Shown: positions 23,495 to 27,601 of the stretch, piece by piece
Layout: every line of letters begins with the position of its first letter
Numbering within the stretch: the first letter of the stretch is position 1
DNA from: Methanoregula sp. PtaU1.Bin051
Lineage (GTDB): Archaea > Halobacteriota > Methanomicrobia > Methanomicrobiales > Methanospirillaceae
Length of the DNA: 64,000 bases
Reading direction: 5' to 3'
Assembly (NCBI GenBank): GCA_002067895.1
Contig: MVRE01000004.1
Span: 1 to 64,000, forward strand
The notes under the pieces: generated by a model
Seen by the model: only the letters and a program-made list of their open reading frames with translations
What the model was told of the DNA's origin: nothing
Database searches by the model: none
Translations under genes and position numbers: made by a program

Positions 23495-24790
23495 TCAGAA
23501 CTCGACCACCATTACGGCCTCCTCCTCCTTCCGGAGCTCGCCCTGCAGGTGCGTCGCATCGAACTCGTACGTATCCCATGGGTTATACTTCTCGTACAGC
23601 TCGCATTTGTCCAGCACGTCGACGAATTCCTTGAGGAAGATCCGGGGGATGACGTCGATTCTGCCCCCGAACCGGGTCGTGATCTTCTTGATCATCGCCC
23701 GGATGAACCGGTGGGAGATCCGCTCCCGGTCGACCTCGCTGTATGCCTGTGCGTAGATATCGACGACCTTGAGGGCGACCTGCTCAAGCTTTTTCGTGTC
23801 GAACTTTGTCAGGATGATCTGGGGCTGGCGGGGGTTCTTGTAGGCATCGGTCTGTACGACACTGATCCGGTCATAGAGCGGCGGCACCGACCGGATCCCG
23901 CGGGAGCCGTCGAACATGGCCGGCGTTCCGGTAAAGAGTAGGTAACAGCGCGGCATCCCGCCGGAGTCCAGTGCATCAATGAGCTGGACAAGCGTGTGGT
24001 ACCCCTTGTCCCGCTGGTTCTTGGGAAGCGCCTGCGTCGTCTCCATCTCGTCGATGGCAACGGCAAGCCCCTTGTAACCGGCACCCTGCATGATGGTGAT
24101 GAGCCCCCGCAGGAACAGCAGCGCCACGGTGTCGTCGATGTCGCCCTTGATGCTCGCCTTCTGCTTGAAGTCCCTCCCGATGTTCGGCTCCGCTGCTATC
24201 CAGCCGAGTGCGGCCTGTGCAAGCTGGAAATCCCCGGTATTGTTGGCCTTATAGTAGGTACGCAGGGCAGCGGCGAGTGCCGTGTTCATCTCAGAGATGC
24301 CGGAAAGGGCAGACTCTATCTCGCGTTCGGTTGCCGCTTCGAGCGCAGCGTCGTCAAGGCTCTCCCCGCTGACCGCGATTAACCGTTCTTCGATGGCAAA
24401 GAGCCAGTTGTCGACGACTGTCTTGAGGGCGCGCTCCTCTTCCTGTGTCCGTAAGCTGGCACAGATCTGCTGGTACATTGCCCTGAGCTTGTAGAGGGGG
24501 GTCGATGAGGAGATGACGATATGGGAGGTGGCAAACCCCTTTTTCCGTGCCATCTCGAGGGCACGTGCGACAAGGAAGGTCTTGCCGCTCCCGTAGTCCC
24601 CCCGGATGAACTTGAGGTCGCCTCCTCCCTGCGCTACGTAATCGAGCTGCTTCCCGATCGCACCCTCCTCGATCTCGAGCCCGACCGCGATCCGTTCGAG
24701 GCCCCCGGCAGGCACCGTGCCCCTGCGCAGCGCATTGATGATATTGATGCTCTCAAGCCGTGCCTTGTCCATGCGTTCAGTTTCCGGCAT
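23495..24790 (-). CDS. BrxD-like P-loop ATPase (DUF2791 family)
   Basis: 431-aa ATPase with Walker A GDYGSGKT (64-71) and Walker B LAVAIDEME (242-250). The pattern before the P-loop (INALRRGTVPAGGLERIAVG, then VAQGGGDLKFIRGDYGSGKT) is that of BrxD, an ATPase of BREX phage-defence loci (DUF2791/ORC-like). A TGTPAMF segment and a C-terminal region consistent with a winged helix follow. None of the usual BREX partners (PglZ, BrxC, PglX methylase, BrxL, DEAD helicase, TerB) is encoded nearby. Instead the gene overlaps the 3' end of a TPR-winged-helix gene by 14 nt, so the two are probably co-translated and may form a complex. A defence role is inference. Confidence 0.75.
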   Translation of the reverse strand: MPETERMDKARLESINIINALRRGTVPAGGLERIAVGLEIEEGAIGKQLDYVAQGGGDLKFIRGDYGSGKTFLVARALEMARKKGFATSHIVISSSTPLYKLRAMYQQICASLRTQEEERALKTVVDNWLFAIEERLIAVSGESLDDAALEAATEREIESALSGISEMNTALAAALRTYYKANNTGDFQLAQAALGWIAAEPNIGRDFKQKASIKGDIDDTVALLFLRGLITIMQGAGYKGLAVAIDEMETTQALPKNQRDKGYHTLVQLIDALDSGGMPRCYLLFTGTPAMFDGSRGIRSVPPLYDRISVVQTDAYKNPRQPQIILTKFDTKKLEQVALKVVDIYAQAYSEVDRERISHRFIRAMIKKITTRFGGRIDVIPRIFLKEFVDVLDKCELYEKYNPWDTYEFDATHLQGELRKEEEAVMVVEF

Positions 24791-26591
24791 ACTCGTATAC
24801 CTCCCCGTCCTCCCCGACTCCCTTCTTTTCGATCAGTACCATGTTTCCTGCCGCTGCTTTCTGGATGATCCGGTTTACCAGCCCCACGACCCTGCGGGTG
24901 TTTAAGGCTTTCCGGAGCTCGATCTCTGTTGCTTTCTTATGGGAACGAAGGAATTCAACAATCTTCTGTTCCTGCTCGTCAAGGTTCAGCTCGTCCCGGA
25001 TCTGCCGGGCTACCGGAACCTCCACCGGTCGAATTTTTACTACCGGCAGATCGATCACCGGCCGATCGGCGATAGCATTATCCTTGCATTCCCGGATCAG
25101 AGTTAGGAAATCCTCCAGCCGGATTGCCTGTGCATGGACGGGGAGGACATCGATCCCCCGCAGGCAGAGCCGCTTGCAGGTCACGTAATCGGATTCCTCA
25201 AGCGCGTGGCGTGCAGCGATTAAAAGTGCGATCGCGAGCAGCTCGAGACCCTCGGTATTCAGGCTCGTCCTGCGCTCATCGAAGCGCTGGATCAGGTGGT
25301 CCATCAAGCGGCGCATCCGGTGCATGGGGCGGGTGGCGTCCACGACCACCGCTGCGACGCGGTGGAGATCGGAAGACCGTTTCACGTTGTTGAGAATGTA
25401 AATCATCACCTTCTCGCACTCACGGTCATCCCCCGTTGCTGCAAGGAACCTCGCATATTCGAGGCCGCCGGTAAGGTAATCTGCGCGGTATGCACGGTAA
25501 TACCATGATCTGGCCTCGGATGTGTTCTTCGTATCCTCATAGAACCGCGCCGTCTCGAGAAGGCTTGCAATATTGATATCCTTTGATACAACAGCAAGAA
25601 AACGGCTCAATGCTTCAGGGGCGGGGAGCGTTGTTACAAGGAACCTGCGATAGCTGCCAATAATCCGGCCGAGCAGTTCCAGGTCGTTCTTTGCCTTCAG
25701 TTCACCGGCGATGAGCTTCTCGTAACCTTCAAGGGCGGCCTTGTGCTCCCCGGCTGCAGCCTTAAGATCGCACGCAAGGAGCCGGTATAGGGGAGTATCA
25801 GAATGCGCAAGGAGCAGCGTGCAGGTATCAAGTGCCCTGCGGTGCTCACCGGTAGCCGAGAGGAGCAGGATATAGTCGGCAAGAATCTCGCTGTCAGAAA
25901 CGGTTTTCGTATAGTCGGCATAGGCATCGAGTGATGCAGGAGTGTCGTACCGCGCGAGGGCGGAAAGGTACTTCTTCAGGAGGATGGAATCGCCGGACTG
26001 GCGGTATGCCTCCAGTGCGGCGGCAGCAGCTTTCCTGTATTCTGCAGCGAGGAAAAGAGCGTCGAGGTACTCGTGGCTCAGTACCTGTTCGCCTAAGAGG
26101 TTCTTGTGAGCGGCAAGCGCCTCCGATGAATCCCCGATCCCGATCAGTGCTTTAACGAGGTTTCTTGCATCCGCCTCCCGTTTTCCGAGGCTGACGAGGC
26201 GCTTTAGAACCGGCAGTGCGCCGCGGTAATCGGAACGGGAGAGAAGGTAATCCGCATAGCTACGGAGCGCTTCCATGTTCATCGGATCAAGGTGGATGGC
26301 GGCAGCATATTCAGCGATTGCCTTATCATCGCCTTTTGCCTCAAGTACTTTTCCAAGGTAACTGTGGACATAGCTGGAATCCGGCATCATCTCCTTAAGA
26401 TCGCGGAAATGGACTTCTGCGTCCTCCAGCCTGCCGGTATTGAAAAGGTTGGTTGCAAGGAGTACTTCGATTGCCTGGTCCCGTTCCGAACCGAGAACTT
26501 CGAGGCAGAGCCGGAGTGACTCCTGGTACCTCCCCTCTTCAAAGAGCCGGAACGCTCTCTTTTTCTGTTCTTCACGAGATGGTGCGATCAA
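24777..26591 (-). CDS. TPR-repeat protein with C-terminal winged helix
   Basis: 604-aa cytoplasmic protein made mostly of TPR/helical hairpins (FEEGRYQESLRLCLEVL, LGKVLEAKGDDKAIAEYAAA, and so on to about residue 420). A further helical region leads to a C-terminal winged-helix domain (about 535-600) with EQKIVEFLRSHKKATEIELR and VNRIIQKAAAGNMVLIEKKG. The start appears to be TTG at 26591. It forms a TTGA overlap with the stop of a small upstream frame, and GAGG is found about 10 nt before it. Its 3' end overlaps the BrxD-like ATPase gene. TPR plus DNA-binding-like domain plus ATPase suggests a regulatory or scaffold subunit of one complex. Confidence 0.8.
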   Translation of the reverse strand: MIAPSREEQKKRAFRLFEEGRYQESLRLCLEVLGSERDQAIEVLLATNLFNTGRLEDAEVHFRDLKEMMPDSSYVHSYLGKVLEAKGDDKAIAEYAAAIHLDPMNMEALRSYADYLLSRSDYRGALPVLKRLVSLGKREADARNLVKALIGIGDSSEALAAHKNLLGEQVLSHEYLDALFLAAEYRKAAAAALEAYRQSGDSILLKKYLSALARYDTPASLDAYADYTKTVSDSEILADYILLLSATGEHRRALDTCTLLLAHSDTPLYRLLACDLKAAAGEHKAALEGYEKLIAGELKAKNDLELLGRIIGSYRRFLVTTLPAPEALSRFLAVVSKDINIASLLETARFYEDTKNTSEARSWYYRAYRADYLTGGLEYARFLAATGDDRECEKVMIYILNNVKRSSDLHRVAAVVVDATRPMHRMRRLMDHLIQRFDERRTSLNTEGLELLAIALLIAARHALEESDYVTCKRLCLRGIDVLPVHAQAIRLEDFLTLIRECKDNAIADRPVIDLPVVKIRPVEVPVARQIRDELNLDEQEQKIVEFLRSHKKATEIELRKALNTRRVVGLVNRIIQKAAAGNMVLIEKKGVGEDGEVYEYAGN

Positions 26592-26785
26592 GGCTCCACT
26601 TCCTCAACCCTGATATCTGCAAAAGGCGGCGGACGTCTGTATTCTGTATAATACAATCCTCCAGTAACGTTTGCATCCGACTGGTTATAGGCTTGCCTCT
26701 CATCACGGGACCGTCTTTTCGTGCCATTCTTCTCTCTGACGGAAAAGAATGAGGTGCCCTGCGGGAGCACGCTCAACCGGTTCAC
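26588..26785 (-). CDS. Possible 65-aa small protein
   Basis: A GTG-started frame with basic N-terminal half (SVREKNGTKRRSRDERQAY) and acidic C-terminus (RVEEVEP). It fits tightly between pfpI (16 nt after its stop) and the TPR gene, whose TTG it overlaps as TTGA. This arrangement favours a real, translationally coupled gene. The lack of a good ribosome-binding site and of any recognised family argues against it. If not translated, it is simply the leader of the TPR gene. Confidence 0.35.
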   Translation of the reverse strand: MNRLSVLPQGTSFFSVREKNGTKRRSRDERQAYNQSDANVTGGLYYTEYRRPPPFADIRVEEVEP

Positions 26786-26801
26786 GATCCGGAGTGCAGG
26801 T

Positions 26802-27317
26802 TTAATGCTTCAACGCTGCTGCAACAGCTTCGCCAAAAGCCTTCGCTGCAGAAGGGCCGTTTGCCGTGATTATGGATCCTTCCGCAACAACTGGGGCATT
26901 GACGAGAACAGCCCCTCCTTTTCTCATCTCTGCAACTGCATCGGGAGATGCAAACACCGTTGCGTTCTTCCCTTTCAGGATACCTGCCCGTGCAAGCACA
27001 ACCGGCGACAGGCAGATAGCTGCAATCAGCTTCTTTGCTGCTGAAAAGCCGGCAACAAGCCCTGCAAGATCCCTGTTTCCCCAGAGGTAGGCCGGCGAGC
27101 CCGGTCCCCCGACAATAACGAGCCCTTCGTACTTTACGGGATCAGCATCGGAAAATTTGAGCGTGGCCTGTGCTGTTCCTCCCAATGCCCCATGGCAGGT
27201 TTCCGTGCGTGTCGATGCGATATCGTATGCGATCCCATGCCGTTTGAAGACGGAGAGAGGCTCGTCAAGCTCTTCGTCCCTGTAACCTTCCGGTGCAATG
27301 GCGACGAGAAGTGTCAT
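26802..27317 (-). CDS. DJ-1/PfpI-family protein
   Basis: 171-aa member of the DJ-1/PfpI/ThiJ superfamily (class I glutamine amidotransferase-like fold). It shows an N-terminal beta strand (LLVAIAPEGYRDEEL) with the acidic residue that sits near the nucleophile, VIVGGPGSPAYLW, the nucleophile elbow AAICLSPVVLARAGIL with Cys about 104, and a C-terminal GSIITANGPSAAKAFGEAV. Members act as glyoxalases/deglycases, peptidases or chaperones, and the sequence does not say which. It lies 32 nt after orf83 on the same strand and may be the second gene of the transcript that ends with the BrxD-like ATPase. Confidence 0.9.
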   Translation of the reverse strand: MTLLVAIAPEGYRDEELDEPLSVFKRHGIAYDIASTRTETCHGALGGTAQATLKFSDADPVKYEGLVIVGGPGSPAYLWGNRDLAGLVAGFSAAKKLIAAICLSPVVLARAGILKGKNATVFASPDAVAEMRKGGAVLVNAPVVAEGSIITANGPSAAKAFGEAVAAALKH

Positions 27318-27349
27318 GGGGAACCTGTTGGCGGATGACTACAAGAACG

Positions 27350-27601
27350 TTACTGGTGTTCGCCAAGATGACGGGCAAGTGCGGTCTCGGGTTTGTACTT
27401 CCGGGCGATTGCAAGCGCCGTTGCCCGTAGTTCATTGTGGTCCCGGATGCAGCTGGCCGGTGGCGGGGACTTGCGGAGGATTGCAGAGGTGTTCTCCGTT
27501 ATCTGGATCAGTTCGGTCGCAATAACGGCGTTCAGCCAGAGCAGGTCGGCAAGCATCTGATGCGTCTCATTGTTCTCCATACCCGGTATTCTTGTCTCCA
27601 T
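27350..27601 (-). CDS. Small helical protein, 83 aa, unknown function
   Basis: A predicted all-helical protein with HQMLADLLWLNAVIATELIQ, ITENTSAILRKSP, and a charged C-terminal helix ending in ARHLGEHQ. The frame is preceded in the same reading by a long antisense extension through the divergent thioesterase gene. Only the part from the ATG at 27601 (or ATG 27580) has a natural composition, and it lies outside that gene. It starts what looks like a minus-strand operon with pfpI. No family was recognised. Confidence 0.6.
   Translation of the reverse strand: METRIPGMENNETHQMLADLLWLNAVIATELIQITENTSAILRKSPPPASCIRDHNELRATALAIARKYKPETALARHLGEHQ

Follow-up and report, generated by a model that had tools for sequence, protein, structure and literature searches.

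BrxD has been regarded as restricted to Type-2 BREX, where its role beside the helicase BrxHI is uncharacterised, and no Type-2 BREX was found in archaea (PMC12839542). The locus described here raises the question of what a BrxD-type ATPase does in the chromosome of a methanogenic archaeon, where its gene overlaps one for a TPR-winged-helix (TPR-wHTH) protein. The pair is located on contig 4 of a Methanoregula genome of 2.31 Mb (96% complete); the 64,000-nucleotide stretch of this contig that was analyzed is referred to as the window. An initial annotation had suggested a stand-alone, two-protein defence or regulatory complex outside BREX.

The two genes had been described as part of a tight run of five, and this description holds in part. 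The overlap between the TPR and ATPase genes is exactly 14 nt, as annotated, and orf83 and PfpI are genuine genes, although neither is tied to the pair when the whole order is considered (Table 1). In contrast, orf65 is most likely not a gene, and its 4-nt overlap with the TPR gene is most likely due to chance, because no conserved counterpart exists in 28 near-relative loci. The TPR frame starts with a TTG preceded by GAGG, and the sequence has a GGAGG site shortly upstream of the ATG of the ATPase gene; the 14-nt overlap may permit translational coupling of the two.

Table 1. Features of the locus and the helicase gene found elsewhere in the genome (window positions unless another contig is named).
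Feature	Coordinates	Strand	Basis or remark
BrxD-type AAA+ ATPase, 431 aa	23495..24790	-	PF10923 and NF033438 BREX_BrxD matches
TPR-winged-helix protein, 604 aa	24777..26591	-	TPR_19 match, AlphaFold
C-terminal wHTH of the TPR protein (residues 537-601)	24789..24983	-	Model and order-wide identity
14-nt overlap between the end of the TPR gene and the start of the ATPase gene	24777..24790	-	Coordinates
Walker A of the ATPase (GDYGSGKT)	24578..24601	-	Invariant residues, 24 sequences
Walker B of the ATPase (AVAIDE)	24047..24064	-	Invariant residues, 24 sequences
orf83	27350-27601		Real gene; in 25/28 near-relative loci
PfpI	26802-27317		Real gene; in 7/28 near-relative loci
orf65	26588-26785		No conserved counterpart in 28 near-relative loci
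BrxHI-like helicase, ~720 aa	G000:C18:36482-38620 (window's genome, other contig)		PADLOC BrxHI match

Additional partners were considered at the locus itself. An operon of five genes that would include orf83, PfpI and orf65 is ruled out, as its make-up varies across the order and orf65 is unconserved. A GT2 glycosyltransferase gene occupies the place of orf65 in most near relatives, in one of which (L032) it shares 4 nt with the TPR gene; as it is missing here and in several other loci, it is also ruled out. The OB/HD-domain gene found 3' of the ATPase gene in Methanofollis was rejected on the grounds that it is not adjacent in the window's family.

Assignment of the ATPase to the BrxD type proved correct: profile searches yielded 438.8 bits with PF10923 and 418 bits with NF033438 BREX_BrxD, whose cut-off is 350 bits, and PADLOC scores were 422.7 for BrxD and 159 for SngB. 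Among 24 relatives, the Walker A residues G64, G67, G69, K70 and T71, the Walker B residues D247 and E248, and also T289 and R308, are invariant. In phylogenetic analysis, the ATPase and its relatives form a clade (support 100/100) that groups with the BrxD proteins of BREX types 2 and 6 (91/96), apart from SngB of Shango; identity to plasmid-borne BREX-2/6 BrxD is 33-41%. The nearest Foldseek chains to the AlphaFold model (mean pLDDT 79) are the AAA+ proteins RuvBL, ORC/Cdc6 and TnsC, all of them weak matches with low TM-scores and none under E 0.001. An ORC/Cdc6/TnsC-like character of the ATPase is weakly indicated by the structural search itself, and leans on the literature, where BrxD is placed in the ORC-Cdc6 class (PMC12839542). 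A difference from ORC/Cdc6 and TnsC is that the wHTH resides here on the partner protein.

The AlphaFold model of that partner (mean pLDDT 90.6) consists of a helical TPR array, approximately residues 1-505, followed by a wHTH (~537-601) with a helix-strand-helix-helix-wing pattern. Pfam detected generic TPR models only (TPR_19, E 3.7e-10) besides a weak BTAD match (E 0.009), and gave no significant name to the wHTH; PADLOC did not match the protein. Mean pairwise identity across the order is 52% for the wHTH, whose recognition helix is conserved, and 35% for the TPR array, which evolves 2-3 times faster than the ATPase.

We also considered whether the wHTH might be a specific homologue of the C-terminal wHTH of BREX-6 PglZ. 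When hhalign was run against 84 neighbour families, each of the two was the best match of the other (E 4e-5 and 1.3e-5); however, the relationship is suggestive only, because BREX-6 PglZ reaches nearly the same score with an ordinary wHTH decoy family (29.3, compared with 31.3). Homology to BREX-2 PglZ or to Shango SngA was not supported. A separate TPR-related observation is a single open frame of ~6719 codons with many TPR-like matches in another genome (G002:C6:about 159000-173400).

Despite passing the BREX_BrxD cut-off, the locus is not BREX, because the genome harbors neither PglZ nor a BrxC-type gene. In agreement with the initial annotation, searches of the window's whole genome detected no PglZ (PF08665) and a single match to PF10923, the family that covers both BrxC and BrxD and by which alone the BrxC/PglY criterion was judged; the match is the BrxD-type gene itself. 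No PglX/BrxX methyltransferase is found among the genes beside the pair. Two features of BREX types 2 and 6 are present, namely the BrxD ATPase at the locus and a BrxHI helicase encoded in trans. In BREX-2/6 and in Shango, a larger protein (PglZ or SngA) precedes the ATPase and the helicase follows it; in the BREX-2 loci that we read, pglZ comes before brxD, either adjoining it or with a 4-nt overlap. Type-2 PglZ ends in a wHTH, and BrxD and BrxHI make up a tightly linked dyad in which BrxD has been suggested to load or activate BrxHI (PMC12839542). In the archaeal locus, in contrast, the partner is a TPR-wHTH protein, the helicase is elsewhere, and the pair is chromosomal, single-copy and apparently vertical. 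As for methylation, persistent orphan methyltransferases (GATC, AGCT, GTAC, CTNAG) are found order-wide in Methanomicrobiales (PMC10609329).

Shango, an anti-phage system (PMC10250203), resembles the locus in having a scaffold-like gene upstream of a PF10923 ATPase; a DEAD/Lhr-like helicase gene lies downstream, and the system is patchily present in the same order. The pair is not Shango: SngA is of the TerB type while the upstream gene here encodes a TPR-wHTH protein, and in the two trees the ATPase and the helicase lie outside the separate clades of SngB and SngC. Shango genes are, furthermore, linked and patchy, and some genomes hold both Shango and the BrxD/TPR pair. No description of this pair was found in open-licence PubMed Central articles.

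Other loci with ATPases of this superfamily came to light. Shango-type SngA-SngB-SngC loci are scattered in Methanomicrobiales (L060-L070) and occur in another member of the phylum (L173). A three-gene cassette, present in two genomes from a different family of the phylum (L171, L172), encodes a 258-aa protein with no Pfam match, a PF10923 ATPase with about equal BrxD and SngB scores, and a helicase of the BrxHI/SngC type. In seven further cassettes (L174, L175, L176, L177, L180, L181, L182), a ~285-aa protein and a ~410-aa PF10923 ATPase are accompanied by a second PF10923-like ATPase and a ~530-aa DEAD helicase; at least one gene is cut off or larger in some of these loci, and the main ATPases branch deeply as a clade of their own. 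A Deinococcus plasmid (L189) encodes a 451-aa protein, a BrxD-like ATPase and a DEAD helicase, with no annotated PglZ nearby.

The proposal of a conserved two-gene core outside BREX is well supported. The TPR gene is directly upstream of the ATPase gene in 29/29 sampled loci of the order, and both genes occur in all 80 named loci, which are the top 80 among 127 related stretches and belong without exception to Methanomicrobiales or unplaced euryarchaeal bins. Among 392 genomes of the phylum, 61 matched a profile of the ATPase clade at 684 bits or above, the next best score being 238. Of 79 genomes sampled from three Methanomicrobiales families, 78 carry the pair in a single copy (44/45 in the window's family, 12/12 in the Methanofollis group and 22/22 in the Methanocorpusculum/Methanocalculus group); it was not found in the sampled genomes of the other three families of the order. 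Searches of viral contigs and phages returned no match to the pair, and plasmid matches were BREX or Shango-like ATPases with less than 60% identity. In most of the window's family the pyrG-hisD neighbourhood is recurrent, while other families present other contexts.

This is not the distribution of a mobile defence island, with patchy presence, a shifting neighbourhood and an association with mobile elements, and the link to defence islands envisaged at the outset is not borne out. The initial annotation had also warned that the pair might turn out to be a ubiquitous housekeeping locus: within the three families this is largely the case, but the locus is absent from the other three. G134, which belongs to the window's family and whose genome is complete, lacks the ATPase, the TPR gene and the helicase, while its genus-mates G128, G143 and G147 keep all three. 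The module is not essential in the order, because three families and G134 live without it.

Vertical inheritance of the module is consistent with these data, because the internal branching of the ATPase tree follows the families and the protein distances correlate with those of PyrG, HisD and GuaAb (r 0.73-0.95). Identity to near relatives is 84-85% for the ATPase, 79-86% for HisD and 86-88% for PyrG; when the whole order is compared, the ATPase shows distances roughly double those of PyrG and GuaAb. The ATPase is under purifying selection, with a constraint about like that of HisD; the dN/dS values are rough because synonymous sites are near saturation.

Absence of a helicase, claimed by the initial annotation, is true of the locus but not of the genome, in which a different contig carries the gene for a BrxHI-like helicase. 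When a profile built from Shango and BREX helicases was used, a helicase of ~720 aa was detected in every pair-bearing genome tried, besides an ordinary Lhr-type helicase of ~900-1000 aa. In the 392 genomes of the phylum, the profile of the ~720-aa protein recovered the same 61 genomes as the ATPase plus three (G163, G172, G376) that contain ATPase-helicase cassettes of other types. In the order, the helicase is present in 77 of 78 genomes with the pair and in none of 71 without it; the single exception is G146, a draft genome of 89% completeness. The view of a two-part system without a helicase is thus wrong or at least incomplete. BrxHI is the best PADLOC match of these helicases (426-544 bits, 544 for the copy in the window's genome), and their clade (100/100) groups with BREX BrxHI (82/87), apart from SngC and Lhr. 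The gene is unlinked to the pair in the genomes read, and frequently follows a thioredoxin-like gene, annotated by eye.

A partnership between the helicase and the pair is suggested by co-occurrence and by homology to BREX, and the ATPase and helicase trees appear to reflect parallel histories. As a pattern this co-occurrence is strong, but few independent events underlie it, the distribution being mostly a single block of families together with the joint loss in G134. In the genus of G134, the helicase copy of G128 (G128:C4:78362-80404) has an in-frame TAA and that of G147 sits on a long branch, perhaps a sign of decay in the lineage.

The reading that we favour, with guarded confidence, is that the pair supplies two of the three proteins of an ATP-driven DNA-processing machine, chromosomally fixed in three families of Methanomicrobiales. 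In such a machine, the BrxD-type ATPase would assemble on DNA and would load or activate the BrxHI-like SF2 helicase, whose gene lies elsewhere. The TPR-wHTH protein would be the scaffold: its wHTH would bring the ATPase to DNA while the TPR superhelix would hold clients. It would thus occupy the position of PglZ beside BrxD in BREX-2/6, and methylase, PglZ and BrxC would have no part. The machine would operate as the BrxD-BrxHI part of BREX-2/6 does, although it is not BREX. We infer that the three proteins would form a physical complex, and that its purpose might be genome maintenance, with the helicase being loaded during repair or the restart of forks. A chromosomal housekeeping role is favoured because of the fixed position, the single copy and the constraint. 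The full proposal, a fixed non-BREX BrxD-BrxHI machine with a TPR-wHTH subunit in the service of archaeal genome maintenance, is plausible but tentative.

The same three proteins might instead be a domesticated form of constitutive immunity against viruses or plasmids, fixed and vertically inherited, in which the TPR protein would be a sensor replacing PglZ on a BREX-2/6 BrxD-BrxHI core. This alternative deserves attention because the closest relatives of the ATPase and the helicase are BREX proteins, a related ATPase-helicase core serves Shango against phages, and the TPR array evolves fast; loss in one lineage and absence from three families also fit a defence or sensor role. On the other hand, a single-copy module whose pyrG-hisD neighbourhood is conserved in most of the window's family, whose locus lacks nuclease, methylase and PglZ genes, and whose ATPase is under HisD-like constraint, is not easily accommodated, and we regard immunity as unlikely on balance. 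Genome maintenance is somewhat likelier, though not far ahead.

Regulators of the MalT/AfsR type are built of NTPase, TPR and wHTH modules, and the pair could be a STAND-like regulator of this kind split onto two chains, with the ATPase controlling a TPR-wHTH transcription factor and the helicase co-occurring by accident. The weak BTAD match and the conserved recognition helix would agree with such an arrangement, but the ATPase is of the BrxD type rather than NACHT/NB-ARC, and the near-perfect co-occurrence and joint loss of the helicase would be left unexplained, all of which makes it improbable. Decay of a BREX-2/6 system, of which BrxD and BrxHI are the only recognisable genes, is very improbable given intact genes with invariant catalytic residues, purifying selection, and conservation over three families with a partner absent from BREX.

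A practical consequence is that BREX should not be inferred from a lone BREX_BrxD annotation in Methanomicrobiales. If the proposed machine does serve archaeal genome maintenance, the ATPase-helicase core of BREX-2/6 and Shango would be a general DNA-processing engine, employed in housekeeping and defence alike. The existence of a stable version without PglZ and BrxC in cultured methanogens would permit study of the core alone, and would show how parts are exchanged between defence and housekeeping machines.
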